NCBI GenBank assembly: GCA_026389335.1
Contig: JAPLIB010000009.1
Location: forward strand, 1-64,000
DNA from: Cyanobacteriota bacterium
Lineage (GTDB): Bacteria > Cyanobacteriota > Cyanobacteriia > PCC-6307 > Cyanobiaceae
DNA: 64,000 nucleotides
Reading direction: 5' to 3'
In this document: piece after piece, positions 1-8,543 of the stretch
Numbering within the stretch: the first letter of the stretch is position 1
Layout of the letters: each line of letters begins with the position of its first letter
Translations under genes and position numbers: made by a program
Notes under the pieces: model-generated
The model's database searches: none
Told to the model about the DNA's origin: nothing
What the model saw: only the letters and a program-made list of their open reading frames with translations

Positions 1-129
1 CCCTGCATCCCCAGTCGCGGCGTGCAGAGGCGGCAAAAAGAGCCATGGTTCACGCGGATTGACTTGCCGCCACGGCTACGCCAGAACCAACGGCTGGCTG
101 TCCCATGACTGTCGCAGCTGAGATGTGTC

Positions 130-305
130 GGGCAGTCAGCGTCGGGCCTGGTGTCGGGTGAGGAACAAAGCAGCACGCGTCGCCGTGGCTTTGTTGCTGT
201 TTTATTGAGGGCGTAGCGGGAAATCGAGGCCATCGCCTCCGGTCCATCCGCCCAACTGAGCACGAGCTCCCAGGGTTCGTGGATCACGGTTTCAAACCGA
301 CCGTT
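130..305 (-). pseudogene. out-of-frame C-terminal Mur-ligase piece of the neighbouring CphA-like gene
   Basis: Just past the stop of the ATP-grasp/Mur gene, another minus-strand frame reads NNGRFETV, then ELVLSWADGPEAM, then RRRVLLCSSPDTRPDA. This has the order expected for the end of the CphA Mur domain: GRFE, the DYAHNP-like segment, then a GDRRD-like segment. It is therefore most likely the true C-terminus, separated from the upstream ORF by one base near 302-310. The usual DYAHNP motif reads SWADGP here, so the active site may already be lost. Below about position 130 the similarity fades. Function is inferred from motif order only. Confidence 0.5.
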
Positions 306-2421
306 GTTGTGGGCCGGTTGGCAACCGAAACCGTGCAACCCAGCCAGGATCTGGCTGGGTTGCACGGTTTCGGCCGCAAGCCAGGGCAGCCGTGAAGGCC
401 GCCGCCGGTGCGATCGTGCCGATGGCGCCAAGATCCGAGGCTGGAATGTCGCGCAGGTAAGTCTCCAGCAGCTCCTCGTGATGCCAGTGCAGCGTGATCC
501 GGCCGTCCGGATCGCTGCAATAGCTCACCGCGAGATGTCCCGCCTTGCGGTGGGCCTGCCAAGCGGCACAGCCGGGCGCCTCGCCCACCAGGGCAACCGA
601 AGCCGGGTCACGGTTCTGGGCCATCGCCAGCACCAGCGGATCGTCGGCATTGAGAACCAGCAGCCGGTCGGCGGCCTGGGCCACCACGGCCTTGATGTGG
701 GCCAGATCATCGCGGGAGCGGATGCCCTCCATGCCGACATGGTTGTCGAGCACATTGAGTACGGCGCCCACATCGGCACGCTCAAGACCGAGCCCCGACT
801 TGAGCAAGCCACCACGGGCAATCTCGGCCACAAGCGCCTCCACGCGCCGATCCATGAGCAGGTGCAGGGCCGCTCCGCCACCGGCCACATCCCCCGATGC
901 GATCTCTTCGCCGTCCAGTTCCATGCCGGTGGAGGAGCTCAGCCCCACGCGCAGACCTGTGCTGCCCAGCACGTGGGCCAGCATCCGACTGGTGGTGGTC
1001 TTGCCGACACTGCCGGTGATCAGCGCGGTGGGGATGCGGCCCTGCGGTGAAGCACCCAGCCACCGGCGCACGATCCGTTGGCAGAGATCGCTTTGGGGGT
1101 TGGCCACCAGATGGGGCCGCAGGCCGGGGGAAAGGTTGGCCTCCAGCAGCCAGGTGCCGCCTTCCCGCCAGCTCACGCCGATGTCCTGGCTGATGAAGTC
1201 GAGACCCAGCGCATCGGCGCCGATCAGCTGGGCGATGTCCTCAGCGAGGCGGCGGTTGTCGGGATGCACCTGCTCGCTGCAGTCGATCGCTGTACCACCC
1301 TGGGAGATGTTGGCGGCGCGGGAGAGCAGCACCGGTGTGCCGGCGGCTGGTGTGGTGTCCAGGGACAATCCCTGCTCGGCCAGCAGCAGATTGAGCCGTC
1401 CATCCACTGGCACCTGATTCATGAGGCGTTCGTAGGCCACGCCCCGTTCGGGATCGGCGTTGAGCGCGGCGATCTGCTGGCGCAGGGGCCGGAGCCCATC
1501 GCTGCAGAGCGATGCCGGCTGGCGTTGTGCTGTCGCCAGCAGCTGGCCCTCCATCACCAGCAGGCGATGGTCGGATCCCGGTAGCGTCGGTTGCACCAGC
1601 TGCCGCGGGCTGCTGTCCAGATCCTGGCTCTGCCAGGCCTGCCGCAGTGCCTCGGGGCTGGAGAGCCCCACCCACACCCCTCGGCCTTTGCCTCCGGTAG
1701 CCGGCTTGAGCACTACGGGCCAGCCGATCCGTTCGGCGGCCGCCAGCGCCTGTTCGAGTGATGTCACCACCTCCTGCGCCGGCAGGGGAACCCCGCGATG
1801 CAGCAGCAGCAGGTGCAGGGCTTCCTTGTTCGCTGCGGCCTGGGCGAAGAGGGGGGTGCGATCGGTGAGTGTTTCCCGAAACAACCGCAGCTGGCAGCCC
1901 TGGCCCAGCTGAAGCAGTGGCTGCTGGCCCTGATCCACCAGGTGGAAGGGAATGCCGAGTTGCTGGGCGGCCCGCGCCAGGTGGGCGTGGGTCTGGTTCC
2001 AGAAGCGGGAGCTCAGGGAGGCCCAGAGCCGGGCTGTGGTGGCATCGGGAGGCTTGCCGAGCTGCCACGCCTCCACCATGTGCGTGATCAGGACAGCAGC
2101 GGCCTGGGCTGCGAGGTGATCGTCCACAGGCAGCCAGATCTGCAGGCTGGTGTCGCGCTGATGCAGCCGGCGAGCCGAAGCCGGCTGCAGCCGGGCCTGG
2201 TCGGTGAAGGCCAGCAGCAGCCTGGGAATCAGTAGCGCCAGAGGCTGCTTCAGATCAGCCTGGGAAAGCCGAAGACTGGTGGGAAAGCACCTGAGCCAGG
2301 CGTTCAGCTGAACGTCATTGAGCTGTTCAGACATACTGACGTTGGCGAAGCTGATCACAGCCCCGCTGACAGGTGCGCAGAGGTTGCCGCAGCGCAGAAA
2401 GCGAAATTCACTGATCTGCAT
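292..2421 (-). CDS. cyanophycin synthetase-like ATP-grasp and Mur ligase protein (frameshifted near C-terminus)
   Basis: A 709-residue protein with CphA architecture. Residues 1-190 resemble the CphA N-terminal region (FLRCGNL near the start). An ATP-grasp domain covers about 197-455, with GWPVVLKPATGGKGRGV at 233-249 and LLEANLSPG at 425-433. A Mur-type P-loop, GSVGKTTT, lies at 470-477 and is followed by a Mur middle domain (AEIARGGLLKSGLG, LNADDPL). Such enzymes activate carboxylates as acyl phosphates and join amino acids. The ORF stops 30-40 residues after the middle domain, and the expected continuation lies in another frame, so the gene is probably inactive. It is the last gene of a minus-strand operon, 40 bp after the oxygenase remnant. 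The start at 2421 keeps the conserved N-terminus; Met30 is an alternative. Its base composition is GC-rich like the host, unlike the three genes upstream. Substrate unknown. Confidence 0.75.
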   Translation of the reverse strand: MQISEFRFLRCGNLCAPVSGAVISFANVSMSEQLNDVQLNAWLRCFPTSLRLSQADLKQPLALLIPRLLLAFTDQARLQPASARRLHQRDTSLQIWLPVDDHLAAQAAAVLITHMVEAWQLGKPPDATTARLWASLSSRFWNQTHAHLARAAQQLGIPFHLVDQGQQPLLQLGQGCQLRLFRETLTDRTPLFAQAAANKEALHLLLLHRGVPLPAQEVVTSLEQALAAAERIGWPVVLKPATGGKGRGVWVGLSSPEALRQAWQSQDLDSSPRQLVQPTLPGSDHRLLVMEGQLLATAQRQPASLCSDGLRPLRQQIAALNADPERGVAYERLMNQVPVDGRLNLLLAEQGLSLDTTPAAGTPVLLSRAANISQGGTAIDCSEQVHPDNRRLAEDIAQLIGADALGLDFISQDIGVSWREGGTWLLEANLSPGLRPHLVANPQSDLCQRIVRRWLGASPQGRIPTALITGSVGKTTTSRMLAHVLGSTGLRVGLSSSTGMELDGEEIASGDVAGGGAALHLLMDRRVEALVAEIARGGLLKSGLGLERADVGAVLNVLDNHVGMEGIRSRDDLAHIKAVVAQAADRLLVLNADDPLVLAMAQNRDPASVALVGEAPGCAAWQAHRKAGHLAVSYCSDPDGRITLHWHHEELLETYLRDIPASDLGAIGTIAPAAAFTAALACGRNRATQPDPGWVARFRLPTGPQQRSV
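325..373. repeat. perfect 49-bp palindrome (23-bp arms, 3-nt loop)
   Basis: Positions 325-347 are the exact reverse complement of 351-373, with GAT at 348-350 as the loop. The palindrome lies inside the 3' part of the CphA-like ORF, between the ALACG and ARFRLP segments and about 20 bp before the frameshift. There is no U-tract, so it is not a standard terminator. It looks like a small inserted palindromic element or a hairpin-forming unit of the REP/HIP kind. Confidence 0.85.
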
Positions 2422-2461
2422 TGATTTTGCTCGTTAATTCATCTGTGCTGAGGTTGGGCAT

Positions 2462-3206
2462 TCAGGCGGAAGCATTACATTGAATACGGCTTGCCATCTT
2501 AGGGTCTTGATGAAAAGCATGTGGCGCAACGGCATCCTGAGTTGCTGCTGTACGGCCATGGAGTGTAGGCGTATTGTCGATGATGATCATCTGCCCTGGT
2601 TACATGGGCAGGATCTGCAGGCTGTGTTCATGCGCTTGAATCATGGCCATGATCTCGGGTTTTGTCAGTGAACTGCCGTCACGCCAGCCCACCCCATTGC
2701 TGGATCTGCAAAATATATTATTTGCATCATTGATTTCGTGCGGAATTTCGGGAAGATGTGCAAGATTTCCATTTGCAAATGCCTCTCGATCCGAGGACCA
2801 CGAGCGCCTGAGCACGCAGGTGCGCCAGCTCATCAGCAGATTATTTCCATCCCACTGATGATTAATGTGCGGATGGTTTGCCTCCATTCTCAAGAGGGGT
2901 TGAGCTAATCGACAGGAAAAAACAGAGATCAGGAGTCGGTCCTGACGGGGTATACGCGCGCTCGCTATGACCCAGTACCGCTTTGCGGCCAAAAGGAGCA
3001 TGGTGGAAATCGCCCTCAGGAAACTTTTCCCCGTAAGACTCTCGACCAGCACTTGGAAGGATTGATCTACAAAGAAGTTCTGTTATTGATCGCATCCTGC
3101 CAATGCCATTGGGATGGGGCGGGAGCATGACCCATCCCTTCTCGCGCAGGCTCTTGATGAGTAGGGGAATCGAGAGTTCGCCGACTCGGATTTGTGTCTG
3201 ATGCAT
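2462..3206 (-). pseudogene. Fe(II)/2-oxoglutarate-dependent oxygenase (SyrP/TauD-like), broken
   Basis: The first frame (3206 down to 2862) reads GWVMLPP, then a GHSERAYTPSG-type iron-binding HxE segment, then DLCFFLSI and ENGG, typical of TauD/TfdA/SyrP oxygenases. It then stops. Another frame resumes and carries WRDGSSLTKPEIMAMIQ, an in-frame TAA at 2600-2602, and then PGQMIIIDNTPTLHGR, which holds the distal iron His and the 2-oxoglutarate Arg. There is thus at least one frameshift and one nonsense codon. The total of about 248 codons is short for the family (about 280-350), so an internal deletion is likely too. It starts 2 nt after the P450 stop, so it was co-transcribed. These enzymes often hydroxylate amino acids attached to carrier or ligase enzymes. 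Confidence 0.75.
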
Positions 3207-3208
3207 AT

Positions 3209-4447
3209 CTAAGCCCCCAGGTGAAATGGTAAGTTCTGAAGTGAGCGAACGAAGCTATTTGGTTGCCATTGGGGCTGATCTGCCAGCGAACTCTTGCCAA
3301 AGTGGTTTAAGAATTCCCTAATTGCTATTCTGGCCTCAAGCACAGACAAGTGTCGGCCGATGCAGTGGTAGTTGCCACGCCCAAATGCCAGATGGGGATT
3401 GGGGAAGCGGTCAATTCGGAAGCTATGGGCATTGCTGAATATCTTCTCATCTCGATTCGCGGATCCCAGGATCGCGGAAACTTGCTCGCCGGGGCCGAAG
3501 TGGTGCCCTTCAATTGCTACATCGCTCAACGTCATTCTGAATGTTGAACGTTGCAGGGGAGACTCAAGGCGAAGACTCTCTTCAATGGCGCCAGTGAGTA
3601 AATCGGGATTTGCCTGTAAGAGGCGGCGTTGCTCTGGGTGAGCAAAAAGCAAGTAAAGACAGCTGCCAATCAAGGCTATGGTTGTTTCGTGCCCTGCAAA
3701 TAGAAGCAGAATCAGCATCGCTATGGCTTGATCCTGGCGTAGGGTTGAATCATTGGTTAGATCCCGTAGTCGTTGCAGCAATGAATCTTGTGGTGGCTCC
3801 CATTCACCGTTGAGGCCTGCCTGCATTAAGACTCCCAGGTCTTTGTAGGCGGCGGCCTTGGTTGCATAGGTGCTCTCGGTCAAGGTTAAATCGTCGGTTG
3901 CGGACGTAATGGCCCGTGATAAGCGCCGGAGGATCGGCATCTTGGTTTTTGGGATTCCCAGGAGTGCTGTAATCGTCAGCAAAGGGAGGGGCTCGGCGAA
4001 GGCTTGGACAAGATCTATCGTGTTGCCACACTCGTGTTCTGTGAGGCATAGCTTTGCGTTGCCGCTGACGATATCTGCATACCGGTTGATGGCAGTTCTT
4101 CGGAAAAGATCTTCTACAAGTGATCGCAGTCTGCGATGTTCGGGCTCATCCTGAAAAAGCATGCTTGCATCAAAGCCTGGCTCCGGGCCTCGCGTGCGAG
4201 AGGCGGCATTGTTCTTGGTAAAATTAACCGTGTCGCTCATGATGAATTGGGCTTGCGCATAGGTGCTAAGCAGCCACTTTCCCGGCGCTTTGTTGGTGTC
4301 TGCTGGATGGTGAGGTACAAATAGAGGCTGGTTCAGTCGCCTCATCTCGGCATAGATTGGGTAAGGATCGGAGATGAGTTGATCGCGAAGGTGGCTTGTG
4401 AGTTGGTCGAGATTGAATGCCATCTGTATCTCAGTATCGAAATCCAC
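3209..4447 (-). CDS. cytochrome P450
   Basis: A full-length soluble bacterial P450 of 412 residues. Visible landmarks are the I-helix oxygen-activation motif AGHETT (251-256), the K-helix EESLR (289-293), and the haem loop FGRGNYHCIG (355-364) with Cys362 as the haem thiolate ligand. It would insert oxygen into a small substrate using electrons from a ferredoxin partner not encoded here. The gene overlaps the end of the upstream ATP-grasp reading frame by 17 bp and is followed after 2 nt by an oxygenase remnant. It is therefore the intact member of an operon that combines ligases and two kinds of oxygenase. Its codon use is more AT-rich than that of neighbouring housekeeping genes, which suggests acquisition by transfer. 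Substrate unknown. Confidence 0.93.
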   Translation of the reverse strand: MDFDTEIQMAFNLDQLTSHLRDQLISDPYPIYAEMRRLNQPLFVPHHPADTNKAPGKWLLSTYAQAQFIMSDTVNFTKNNAASRTRGPEPGFDASMLFQDEPEHRRLRSLVEDLFRRTAINRYADIVSGNAKLCLTEHECGNTIDLVQAFAEPLPLLTITALLGIPKTKMPILRRLSRAITSATDDLTLTESTYATKAAAYKDLGVLMQAGLNGEWEPPQDSLLQRLRDLTNDSTLRQDQAIAMLILLLFAGHETTIALIGSCLYLLFAHPEQRRLLQANPDLLTGAIEESLRLESPLQRSTFRMTLSDVAIEGHHFGPGEQVSAILGSANRDEKIFSNAHSFRIDRFPNPHLAFGRGNYHCIGRHLSVLEARIAIREFLNHFGKSSLADQPQWQPNSFVRSLQNLPFHLGA

Positions 4448-4886
4448 CGTGTTGTTCCACGATGAATAGGCCTTCCCTTTCGTCGCTGATCCTGAATGAG
4501 GCGCGGGCGTAGGCCATGCCGTTGATCATGCGAAAACTATTGCAGACCATGGCCACGTTGATGTCTTGATGGGAGCGAATCGGCCTGTGTATTTTGCAGC
4601 TACATTTGCTCATCCAGGCTTCCTGCGCTTTGCTTGGTAGTCCAAGTTTCTTGAACATCCAGAAGAGGATTAATTCTGTGCAGAACTCCTGCGCACTGAA
4701 TATGGAGAGATGAAAGCCTCCCTCGTCGGCTTGGGAGATGTATGGATTGATGATGCCGACGGTAGCGTCCAGTGCATTGCCAAGGATATGACCTCTCTGG
4801 GTGTGCCAGCGTTCTGCCAGGCGCCCCCCGTGTAAATATTCGGACTGGTAGGGTGCAAGGTCGCTGGAGTTAAAGCTGAATTTTTT
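4431..4886 (-). pseudogene. C-terminal part of the ATP-grasp protein in the -1 frame
   Basis: After the A6 run at 4881-4886 the coding-like sequence continues in the -1 frame: KKFSFNSSDLAPYQSEY, GGRLAERWHTQRGHILG, LSIFSAQEFCTELILFWMF and onward to a stop at 4431. An internal ATG at 4658 gives a 75-residue open frame (MFKKLGLPSK to EQHGGFRY). The segment of about 150 residues has an even hydrophobic pattern and overlaps the P450 start by 17 bp, as expected of a real gene end. It may be a small alpha/beta domain. A hotdog-type fold is a guess from the look of the SAQEF and FRMINGMAYARASF segments, not a recognised match. Confidence 0.6.
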
Positions 4887-6775
4887 CTTCGCTCGTTGTC
4901 TTCGCAGTCATTGTCCAGCAACTCAAGAAGATCTTCCACCTTGGCTATATTGGAACGAGATTCGCTCATTGGGGCCAGTGTGGCGGTAATCTTATCGATT
5001 TGATGTAGGCGCTGGTCGTGTGCAGCATTTCTGCCTCTAAATGTTGGGGAGACAGTGGCCAGGCGGTTGATCCTGTCTATCGGTAGTCCATCGCTCAGAA
5101 TGGAGGTATCCCACAGTGCTAGAACCAATCGATCGACACGTGTGCAACTCAGCAGCATCGATACTGCTTGGAATTGGTCTAATGGTGGGCCAGAGAAGCG
5201 CTGATTGCCAACGAAGACACCATCGCGTCCTGCCAGGCCGAGGCCGGAAGCCGTCGATAGGCGCTGGTGTTTTGCTATGGCTTTCTGAAGTGGTTCAATG
5301 CGATCAAGTCCAAGCACCACATCAACTGGAATCCTGCCATTCCCTCTAATCAGTTCTTGGAGAATAGCGCCATGGCCCGAGGCAATCTGCGGTTGGGCGT
5401 TGACTTCGCAAATGATGGCGCCCACATCAAGCCATGAACTGCTGATGTCGCTCATCAGGATGTCAACGCCAGCCAGGTCGAGGCGCAAGGCTTCGGCGGC
5501 CCGTGCAGCCAAGGCAAAATTGTCTGGATGGGTAATGTTCATTACCTCTTTCATTTCGCCGCCCCTGGACACATTGGCTGCGCTACGTAGGGCGATGAAT
5601 TGATCCTTCTCGGGCACACTATTTATGGACAAGCCTTGTTGCGTCAGGAGTCGTTTGGCTTCCATGTCGAAGGCGATGGGCCTTTTGCGTTTGCCACTGC
5701 CTTTGGGACCTCGATCAGGTTGGCGATTCAACTCCTCCAGGAGTTTGCTGATGGTGCTTTTGCCGTCTCCCGTGAGGCCTCCAGGCCGGCGCTCGATGCA
5801 GCGGAAGACTCTGCCGCGATAAACCTGCAGGCGATAATCGATGCCGGAGTGATAGCGTTCAACCAGAATAGGATGGTCGCTTTTGATGATTGCCTCGGCG
5901 GCAGCCTCAACTTCATCCTGGTTGAATAGCTTGACATGGACTTCAAGGCCTCCGTCTGCCGACTGGGGTTTGACTACAGTTGGTAGCCCCAGTTTTTGTG
6001 CCAAAGACCAGGCCTGGCTTGCCGAGCTTGCTGTCAGCCCCGCTGCAACGGGTAGGCCTGCATCGTAAAGCAACTTTTTGGCAACCAGTTTGTCTCTGGC
6101 TGCGTTGCAGCCGATCGCCGATGTGGCGTGCGTGAGGCTGCTGTCCATGAGTGCTGATGAATGGCCCCAGCCATAGTGATGCAGAGTGCCAGCTACATAA
6201 CGCGTGGGTATGTCAAGATCGTGAGCTGCTGAGAGGAATGACAGGGTGTTGGCATTTGGGGGGATCCTGGCCTGCATCTCGTTGCGACATTGAATGAGCA
6301 GATCGATTCCCTTTTCATTTTCCCTGTCCGCTCCCCTGTCCGTTTCCGTTTGCTCAGGCTGTGGCTTGTCCAGCAGCAGGCCAAGACAGGCGTGCAGCAT
6401 TCTGGTGGCTGGCTGCCATGTATAAATTGATGATGGCAGGACCAGGAGGTAGGTGTCGCCTTCTCTGCGCAGACATTGGGGCGGATGGTGCAAGGTCAGG
6501 CGTAGGCCTGCCTGGACCTCGGTGACTATCTTCAGGGCCAGCAGGGAGATGGTTTCCCATGAATCTCGGCTTATTAATTTAAGGCTGTTTAATATTTCTG
6601 TTTCTGAAATCTCGAGATTGTTCAGCCAGTTGCTCAGCTCCTCTGGAAGGTCTGGCTGCTCGGTTTTGTTGTGTCCATTGGTATCCAGCCTGAACAGCAG
6701 GGTGTCCGGGGCGATGCCCGGTAAATAGCCCCTGTGTCTCCTTAGTAATTTCAGGCTTGGTGTATTGGGGCTCAT
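4670..6775 (-). CDS. cyanophycin synthetase-like ATP-grasp ligase (frameshifted)
   Basis: First gene of the minus-strand operon. Residues 1-170 resemble the CphA N-terminal region (LKLLRRHRGYLPGI). The ATP-grasp domain covers about 225-475, with RDKLVAKKLLYDAGLPV, the ATP-loop Lys in LPTVVKPQSADGG, GGLTGDGKSTISKLL and ICEVNAQPQ (455-463). From about 480 the sequence follows the CphA Mur middle domain (GLAGRDGVFVG, RVDRLVLALWDTSILSDGLP) but has no GKT P-loop, so this half cannot bind ATP as a Mur ligase. The last 70 or so residues of the ORF are out of frame, and the likely true C-terminus continues in the -1 frame to 4431. The start at 6775 fits the conserved N-terminus. The predicted role is ATP-dependent amide bond formation on an unknown amino acid. 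Base composition is AT-richer than the host genes. Confidence 0.75.
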   Translation of the reverse strand: MSPNTPSLKLLRRHRGYLPGIAPDTLLFRLDTNGHNKTEQPDLPEELSNWLNNLEISETEILNSLKLISRDSWETISLLALKIVTEVQAGLRLTLHHPPQCLRREGDTYLLVLPSSIYTWQPATRMLHACLGLLLDKPQPEQTETDRGADRENEKGIDLLIQCRNEMQARIPPNANTLSFLSAAHDLDIPTRYVAGTLHHYGWGHSSALMDSSLTHATSAIGCNAARDKLVAKKLLYDAGLPVAAGLTASSASQAWSLAQKLGLPTVVKPQSADGGLEVHVKLFNQDEVEAAAEAIIKSDHPILVERYHSGIDYRLQVYRGRVFRCIERRPGGLTGDGKSTISKLLEELNRQPDRGPKGSGKRKRPIAFDMEAKRLLTQQGLSINSVPEKDQFIALRSAANVSRGGEMKEVMNITHPDNFALAARAAEALRLDLAGVDILMSDISSSWLDVGAIICEVNAQPQIASGHGAILQELIRGNGRIPVDVVLGLDRIEPLQKAIAKHQRLSTASGLGLAGRDGVFVGNQRFSGPPLDQFQAVSMLLSCTRVDRLVLALWDTSILSDGLPIDRINRLATVSPTFRGRNAAHDQRLHQIDKITATLAPMSESRSNIAKVEDLLELLDNDCEDNERRKNSALTPATLHPTSPNIYTGGAWQNAGTPREVISLAMHWTLPSASSIHTSPKPTREAFISPYSVRRSSAQN
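4880..4886 (-). other. slippery heptamer A-AAA-AAT at the frame change of the ATP-grasp gene
   Basis: On the minus strand the zero frame reads AGA AAA AAT. The last A of AGA plus AAA AAT forms an X-XXY-YYZ type heptamer, and a single -1 slip here joins the two halves of the protein exactly. The same arrangement would arise from the loss or gain of one A in the run. It is either a recoding site, a mutation or a sequencing error. Confidence 0.55.
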
Positions 6776-7040: not shown

Positions 7041-8543
7041 TCAGCTGCGAGGCAGTGTTGCGTACAGCGCCTTGAAGCGCGCCTGCTGCTCCTTGTGTAC
7101 CACGATGGTCTCGGGATAGCCGCGGCGCTCCAGCGGGGCTATATCGCCGCTGATCAGATCCCGCGTGGTCACATGGCGCAATTCCGGTAGCCAATGGCGG
7201 ATGTAGTTGGCCTCGGGATCGAATTTGCTGGCCTGGGTGGCCGGGTTGAAGATGCGCAGCGGCTTGGGATCCATGCCGCTGCTGGCGCTCCATTGCCAGC
7301 CGCCGTTGTTGGCTGCCAGATCGCCATCCACCAGGTGCGCCATGAAGTGGCGTTCGCCCAGGCGCCAGTCGCAGATCAGATCCTTCACCAGGTAGGAGGC
7401 GACGATCATGCGGCAACGATTGTGCATCCAGCCGCTGGCGCTGAGCTGGCGCATGGCGGCATCGATGATCGGCATGCCGGTGAGGCCGTCGCCCCAGGCC
7501 TGCAGCCGCTCGGGGTCGTTCTCCCAGGGGAAATGGCGCCATTGGGGCCGGTAGGGGCCGTCGGCGAGTTCGGGGAAGTGAAACAGGGCCTGCTGGTAGA
7601 ACTCGCGCCAGGCCAGCTCCTGTTCCCACACAGTGATCGCGGCGAGGGCCTCTTCGCTGCGGGCCAGCCCCCGGGCCTGCTGGGCGGCGGCCCAGGCCTG
7701 GCGCGGGCTGAGGGTGCCCAGGGCCAGGGCGGCCGAGAGGCCGGAGGTGCCGGCTTCGCTGGGGATGTTGCGGGCCGGTTCGTAGGTGCTGATCGGGCCA
7801 TCACCGCCGCTGCCGCCATCGCAGAAGGCCTGCAGCTGGGCCAGGGCGGCCGCTTCGCCGGGCCGGCAGGGGCAGAGCTCGGCGCCGGCGAAGCCCTCTC
7901 CCAGCAGGGAGGCGGTGTCGAGCTGGCGCAGGGGAAGGCGATCCCAGATCTGCCGCTGTGCATCGCTCAGGTGTTCGGGGTTCAGATCCAGCAGGCCCGA
8001 GGGGGCCGCCACCGGCTCCAGGCCGCCGCTGGCGGCGGAGCCCAGCAGCGCCTTGCGCTCCACCTGGCCGCGCCAGTTGCGCAGGAAGGGGCCATACACC
8101 CGGTAGGGATCGCCGCCGCCGGTGCGCAGCTGTTCCGGCGCGATCAGCAATTGGTCCCAGTCCACCAGCACCTTGCGGCCAGCGGCCTGCAGGGCGGCGG
8201 CCACCCGTCGATCCCGTTCGCGGCCAAGCGGTTCCCCATCCCGGTTCCAGGCCACCACGCCGGCCCCAGCGGCCGCTGCCAGCTGCGGCAGCAGCTCGAC
8301 GGGATCACCCTCCAGCAGCAGCAGCCGGCTGCCGGCGGCCTGCCAGCGCTCGCCCAGCTCCCGCAGGCTCTCACGCCAAAACCAGCGCCGAGCCGGCGCC
8401 ATGGTGGGGGCGTTCAGCTCCGCCGGATCCAGCACCACCACCCCCGTCAATGCCGGGGTGGCGGCCGCCGCTGCAGCCAGGCCGAGGTTGTCGGCCAGGC
8501 GCAGATCACGGCGATGCCAGAACAGCCAGCGCTCAGGACTCAT
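7041..8543 (-). CDS. phrB: deoxyribodipyrimidine photolyase (class I CPD photolyase)
   Basis: A 500-residue flavoprotein that repairs UV-induced cyclobutane pyrimidine dimers using blue light. The N-terminal antenna domain starts LFWHRRDLRLADN. The FAD-binding C-terminal half carries WEQELAWREFYQQ, GMPIIDAAMRQL, MHNRCRMIVASYLVKDL and DGDLAANNGGWQWSAS with SSGMDPKPLRIFNP, the conserved photolyase signature. The protein is closest in style to the cyanobacterial deazaflavin-type enzymes (Anacystis type), which I infer from general resemblance. Length is normal for the family. It stands alone: 164 bp separate it from the NUDIX gene upstream. Confidence 0.95.
   Translation of the reverse strand: MSPERWLFWHRRDLRLADNLGLAAAAAATPALTGVVVLDPAELNAPTMAPARRWFWRESLRELGERWQAAGSRLLLLEGDPVELLPQLAAAAGAGVVAWNRDGEPLGRERDRRVAAALQAAGRKVLVDWDQLLIAPEQLRTGGGDPYRVYGPFLRNWRGQVERKALLGSAASGGLEPVAAPSGLLDLNPEHLSDAQRQIWDRLPLRQLDTASLLGEGFAGAELCPCRPGEAAALAQLQAFCDGGSGGDGPISTYEPARNIPSEAGTSGLSAALALGTLSPRQAWAAAQQARGLARSEEALAAITVWEQELAWREFYQQALFHFPELADGPYRPQWRHFPWENDPERLQAWGDGLTGMPIIDAAMRQLSASGWMHNRCRMIVASYLVKDLICDWRLGERHFMAHLVDGDLAANNGGWQWSASSGMDPKPLRIFNPATQASKFDPEANYIRHWLPELRHVTTRDLISGDIAPLERRGYPETIVVHKEQQARFKALYATLPRS

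Follow-up and report, generated by a model that had tools for sequence, protein, structure and literature searches.

What pathway is encoded by a minus-strand operon in which two ligases resembling cyanophycin synthetases are joined by a cytochrome P450 and an Fe/2OG oxygenase, and how did the copy examined here decay? The window, that is, the whole 64,000-nucleotide stretch that was analysed, covers the first 64 kb of contig C43 (76,998 bp) in a 4.05-Mb genome (G000; 171 contigs, 99% complete). On the minus strand, 3' of a photolyase gene (7041-8543), it carries an ATP-grasp ligase (lig1), a small open reading frame, the P450, a TauD-type Fe/2OG oxygenase and an ATP-grasp plus Mur ligase (lig2). 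The contig, and with it the window, starts inside lig2 and so truncates the operon.

Gene content and order in the window and in relatives

The initial annotation described a minus-strand operon of ATP-grasp ligase, P450, TauD-type oxygenase and ATP-grasp plus Mur ligase, and the open reading frames and domain matches of the window bear this out. These four genes are present, but a fifth was missed, having been read as the tail of lig1. Judging by the reading frames, the operon is one of five genes rather than four because this "tail" (approximately 4431-4892) has its own open frame in four relatives (G028, G017, G063 and G561), which rules out a four-gene reading with a long first ligase. The lig1 gene (4873-6775, minus strand), 85% identical to its G028 copy, has a CphA2-like architecture with neither a Mur P-loop nor a Mur lid; its homologs in G028, G063 and G561 are 621-654 aa long. 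The small gene (4431-4892, minus strand) encodes a protein of about 164 aa, called here the hotdog protein after its predicted fold and recognized from this fold and the open homologs; it is out of frame with its start. The open P450 gene (3209-4447, minus strand) is followed by an oxygenase pseudogene (2531-3206, minus strand) and by lig2 (140-2421, minus strand), which has a CphA1-like architecture and is intact in G028 (866 aa). No promoter or terminator match was found upstream of lig1, and the block itself encodes no carrier protein, adenylation enzyme or exporter.

Four other genomes of the family have lig1, hotdog gene, P450 and TauD-type oxygenase in this same order, so that gene content and order agree in five genomes. 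This block occupies three different chromosomal sites in three genera, and all frames that are visible whole are open. In the closely related G028 (MAG CAMBZX01, listed as Synechococcus sp. UW140), the hotdog gene (164 aa) starts at the end of lig1, and the P450, the oxygenase (295 aa) and lig2 are likewise open; in G017 (MAG Umea1_bin-0606), the order is the same, with a hotdog protein of 170 aa and a lig1 that runs off the contig (both MAGs are incomplete). In G063, from a second genus and assembled in one 3.85 Mb contig, a transketolase-like gene adjoins the block (lig1, 621 aa; hotdog protein, 164 aa; P450; oxygenase, 302 aa), whereas in G561, from a third genus, the block (lig1, 654 aa; hotdog protein, 180 aa; P450, 401 aa; oxygenase, 299 aa) adjoins a lepA-like gene. 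Between G063 and G028, the identity is 56% for the hotdog protein, 45% for the oxygenase, 54% for the P450 and 46% for lig1. In all four relatives, the genes of the block overlap or nearly touch, which fits co-translation. The intact versions that the initial annotation expected in relatives thus exist, and the outcome that it named as contrary, picocyanobacteria in which these genes are never found together, did not occur. A transposase-like frame (L026:6808-7428) lies about 800 bp from the end of the G063 block, which fits mobility.

The status of lig2 is different. In the genus of the window, it directly follows the oxygenase, but G063 has it 81 kb from the block and G561 on a separate contig, each time between a photolyase and a DegT-type aminotransferase. 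Hence, of the single four-gene locus originally proposed, the block is indeed linked, but lig2 is a separate genetic unit that is unlinked in two genera and always co-occurs with it. The hotdog gene is present in 5 of 400 genomes of the family, and lig2 orthologs (at least 65% identity) in exactly the same 5, the next best proteins (G574 and G075) being only 44-45% identical. Two identical sets of 5 in 400 have a chance probability of about 1e-11 if genomes are independent, which these are not, as three come from one genus; three genera nevertheless agree. Among 386 sampled genomes of the phylum, the hotdog gene is absent beyond the genome of the window; a scan of the whole collection with the hotdog alignment, the patterns of which fit close relatives only, recovered only two known loci. 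The block has a G+C content of 51-54% (GC3 0.55-0.58), compared with 67% (GC3 0.80) for lig2 and 68% for the rest of the window. Given the sites of the block and of lig2, their co-occurrence and this contrast in composition, the comparison fits an acquired, moving block that would work with a gene at a fixed site. In G561, lig2 is preceded by a methyltransferase-like gene and directly followed by a 356-aa gene that looks CapA-type (L061:13085-14155).

Decay of the window's copy

The broken genes in the genome of the window are the hotdog gene, the oxygenase and lig2. The initial annotation also counted three broken genes, out of four. The lig1 gene itself is undisrupted: an A-run at its extreme 3' end differs in length by one base, which causes an out-of-frame read-through to 4670, and the same difference puts the hotdog gene out of frame. 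Compared with G028, the oxygenase has a 164-bp deletion, a second large deletion across its 3' end and a stop. The lig2 gene has a frameshift near 385 and is interrupted by a repeated element, the end of which (1-139) begins near 139. The repeat, taken as window 1-142, is found in 32 places in the genome, many of them at contig ends; this abundant mobile element fragments the assembly. The last approximately 97 residues of lig2 (G000:C154:28122-28415) are at the end of contig C154, beside the apparent opposite end of this element; both junctions show a 9-bp direct repeat, read by eye as a duplication. C154 runs on into DegT, the arrangement seen in G028, so a single insertion between the two contigs is most likely.

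Sequencing error as the whole cause of decay is ruled out by the large oxygenase deletions and the element in lig2; it could, however, be behind the two one-base changes. The dN/dS values relative to G028 are 0.22 for the P450, 0.30 for lig1, 0.35 for lig2, 0.034 for the hotdog gene, 0.59 for the remains of the oxygenase and 0.21 for the photolyase, those of intact genes being well below 1. The low ratio of the hotdog gene says that its frame was apparently selected until recently or that its one-base change is an error. The identity of lig2 to the G028 protein falls from 92% before the frameshift to about 70% beyond it, and for this reason the 3' end of the gene may have another history. A near-perfect palindrome, CCGAAACCGTGCAACCCAGCCAGATCCTGGCTGGGTTGCACGGTTTCGG, occupies positions 325-380, exactly at the frameshift and the identity drop.

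Two ligases probably distinct from cyanophycin synthetases

The pairing of ligases with and without a Mur P-loop is the CphA1/CphA2 architecture of cyanophycin synthetases, CphA2 being devoid of P-loop and lid (PMC9427784), and cyanophycin synthases are the solved relatives closest to both ligases. Like CphA1 (TIGR02068; PDB 7wac, 7lg5, 7lgm), lig2 has the domain order N, G (ATP-grasp), M (Mur) and retains the P-loop Lys and Mg ligands (Mur Lys499 and Glu558, in TGSxGKTT and VAE(I/V)ARG). However, whereas true CphA1s score 1260-1263 bits with TIGR02068, far above the curated cut-off of 850 bits, lig2 scores 500 bits in G028 and 495-498 bits in G017, G063 and G561. Catalytic positions of CphA are altered in both ligases. 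Mutation of H267 inactivates the G domain of SuCphA1 (PMC9262961); this position is Lys in all four lig2 sequences and Gly in lig1. The CphA1 motif EVNAAPGFRMH becomes EANLSPGLRPH in lig2, which is also without the N-domain Cx19HxxEH motif, the primer-making site found in 83% of CphA1s (PMC9262961). K220, K261, R309, R323, N394 and S396 are retained in lig1 and lig2, and R458 in lig2 only, so that both enzymes may, to judge from these residues, still bind ATP and make acyl phosphate.

Like CphA2, the lig1 protein has an ATP-grasp domain and, after it, a Mur remnant that lacks P-loop and lid, but the CphA2 B-loop GNHGRG is replaced by (T/A)(D/E)GG(I/L)E and, unlike CphA2, lig1 forms its own clade with tailoring-enzyme partners. 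In a tree of ATP-grasp cores, where long-branched other paralogs are not confidently placed, the lig1 clade (support 100/99) and the lig2 clade (100/100, including the G075 protein) are apart from CphA1 (100/99). The setting differs from that of CphA2 as well: the five genomes with the cassette have no CphA1 or cyanophycinase to supply beta-Asp-Arg, cyanophycinase being present in both control genomes and in none of these five, two of which are incomplete. Cyanophycin metabolism was rejected on the lig2 score, the His replacement, the missing HxxEH and the missing cyanophycinase.

The hotdog protein, the oxygenases and the likely pathway

The hotdog protein has no credible sequence match in Pfam, NCBIfam or PDB. 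Its AlphaFold model, built from five sequences, reaches a pLDDT of 80 with the order beta-beta-long alpha-four beta; an earlier model from four sequences had a pLDDT of 60 and no usable fold match, and it was the distant G561 sequence that raised the value. The top Foldseek match of the model is SAV606 with N-carboxymethyl-3-aminobutyrate, a Michael-addition product (E 1.3e-6, TM 0.60), followed by FabZ, THEM4 and Rv0098, and by Z-score FabZ (15.7) and SAV606 (15.5) tie. In beta-amino-acid and isonitrile pathways, enzymes of the SAV606 type attach glycine to enoyl thioesters (PMC11284099). A fold match gives no reaction, and the predicted likeness to SAV606 is a lead, not an assignment. SAV606, CmiS1, ScoD and Rv0098 (FcoT) share with the hotdog protein the predicted fold, the best Foldseek match and an Fe/2OG oxygenase partner, but no detectable sequence similarity: there is no SAV606 match among PDB sequences and no FcoT match in Pfam at E 1, and membership in the FcoT family by sequence is unsupported, PF10862 failing to find the window's gene. 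The block also differs from those systems in having no acyl ligase or carrier protein and an oxygenase that is not ScoE-like.

The P450, 94% identical to its G028 copy, matches Pfam p450 with 92.7 bits, above the gathering score, and keeps the heme Cys (FGRGNYHCIGRH) and the AGHETT I-helix motif. Its nearest PDB relative by profile is P450BioI (3ejb, E 7.7e-69), with many CYP107-like P450s scoring close behind; the likeness to P450BioI, which has an acyl-ACP substrate, is one of profile only. The intact oxygenases match Pfam TauD with 44.2 (G028) and 33.4 bits (gathering cut-off 27) and are only weakly similar to any solved TauD protein (best, 7tcl, E 3e-6). By motif, HSE...H is the likely iron site in all four, whereas ScoE uses Asp in a 2-His-1-Asp triad (PMC7949033); a thin profile of four oxygenase sequences yields 22 PDB matches at E up to 10, with no entry named ScoE among them.

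We consider it rather probable that a horizontally moving pathway, with four co-translated genes and lig2 as the fifth, has decayed at this locus. With similar, moderate confidence, we infer that these genes serve to build an oxidised amide out of acyl or amino-acid units independently of an NRPS. With ATP-site residues in both its G and its M domain, the lig2 protein would form up to two amide bonds; lig1 would form one, and the substrates of both would be something other than growing cyanophycin. The hotdog protein would bind an acyl thioester and then release, hydrate or aminate it, and oxidation by the P450 and the oxygenase would act either on a building block or on the amide once assembled. 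A small acyl-peptide or peptide in oxidised form would result, with neither NRPS modules nor a ribosomal precursor involved; the oxidised amino-acid or peptide product suggested by the initial annotation is accordingly plausible but unproven.

Three other explanations were weighed. Storage of the cyanophycin type, with lig2 as CphA1, lig1 as CphA2 and the oxygenases as bystanders, would account for the matching domain architectures and the best solved relatives, but with lig2 at 495-500 bits against a cut-off of 850 and about 1260 for true CphA1s, the essential His replaced in both ligases, no HxxEH motif in the N domain and cyanophycinase present in both controls but in none of the 5 cassette genomes, it is highly improbable. 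A chance neighbourhood, in which the block landed beside a lig2 that is an older resident of the photolyase-DegT site, agrees with the native G+C of lig2 and its position in G063 and G561, where the block is elsewhere; we nevertheless regard it as unlikely, given that the 5 of 400 genomes with a lig2 ortholog are precisely the 5 with the block, and that they come from three genera.

Slightly less probable than a chance neighbourhood is an NRPS-free beta-amino acid or isonitrile amide, for which the hotdog protein would add an amino acid to an enoyl thioester (cf. SAV606, CmiS1, ScoD), the Fe/2OG enzyme would oxidise the amine and the ligases would couple the acid to amino acids. The product-bound SAV606 as the top Foldseek match, with Rv0098 also among the top ones, points this way, as does the isonitrile lipopeptide pathway of actinobacteria, at whose core a hotdog protein is paired with an Fe/2OG oxygenase (PMC11284099, PMC7949033); the Z-score tie with FabZ dehydratases, the lack of any sequence match to FcoT, SAV606 or ScoE and HSE...H in place of the ScoE triad (PMC7949033) argue against it.

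Returning to the NRPS-independent route to an oxidised amide, a partial parallel is provided by E-64-type warhead routes, which are also NRPS-independent and couple an Fe/2OG-prepared acid by amide-forming enzymes including ATP-grasp ligases; these are fungal, and the abstract of the source names no hotdog protein or P450 (PMC12568646). No description of the present gene set was found in the open-licence papers searched, and the initial annotation knew of no described pathway with this content, although the ligase pairing itself is known from CphA1/CphA2. The content is a new combination of known enzyme kinds with one family for which no name was found.

Several further CphA2-sized ATP-grasp ligases are encoded in picocyanobacteria (G000:C149:54082-55122, L061:4127-5980, L027:16172-18229), some adjoining methyltransferase-like genes (G000 C149, G561 C69, G063), and these may represent sister systems that use different tailoring enzymes. 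Another pair of ligases, one with the Mur P-loop and one lacking it (L028:5712-10184, G075:C6), 44% identical to lig2 and 34% to lig1, adjoins phosphodiesterase-like and glycosyltransferase-like genes in a genome with no hotdog gene. A bolder scenario, which we hold only as a speculative and rather unlikely one, is a new class of NRPS-free, precursor-free natural-product assembly that relies on a pair of repurposed ligases of the cyanophycin-synthetase type. Here a new hotdog family would make a beta-amino or isonitrile-like acid, which would be oxidised before the ligases couple it, with several such systems in picocyanobacteria having other partners (methyltransferase-like genes in G561 and G000, the phosphodiesterase-like protein in G075).

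Which intact genes to express is clear from the relatives. A five-gene set of this kind, compact and apparently mobile in freshwater picocyanobacteria, would add a way to modified peptides, one that tools searching for NRPS modules or RiPP precursors may overlook.
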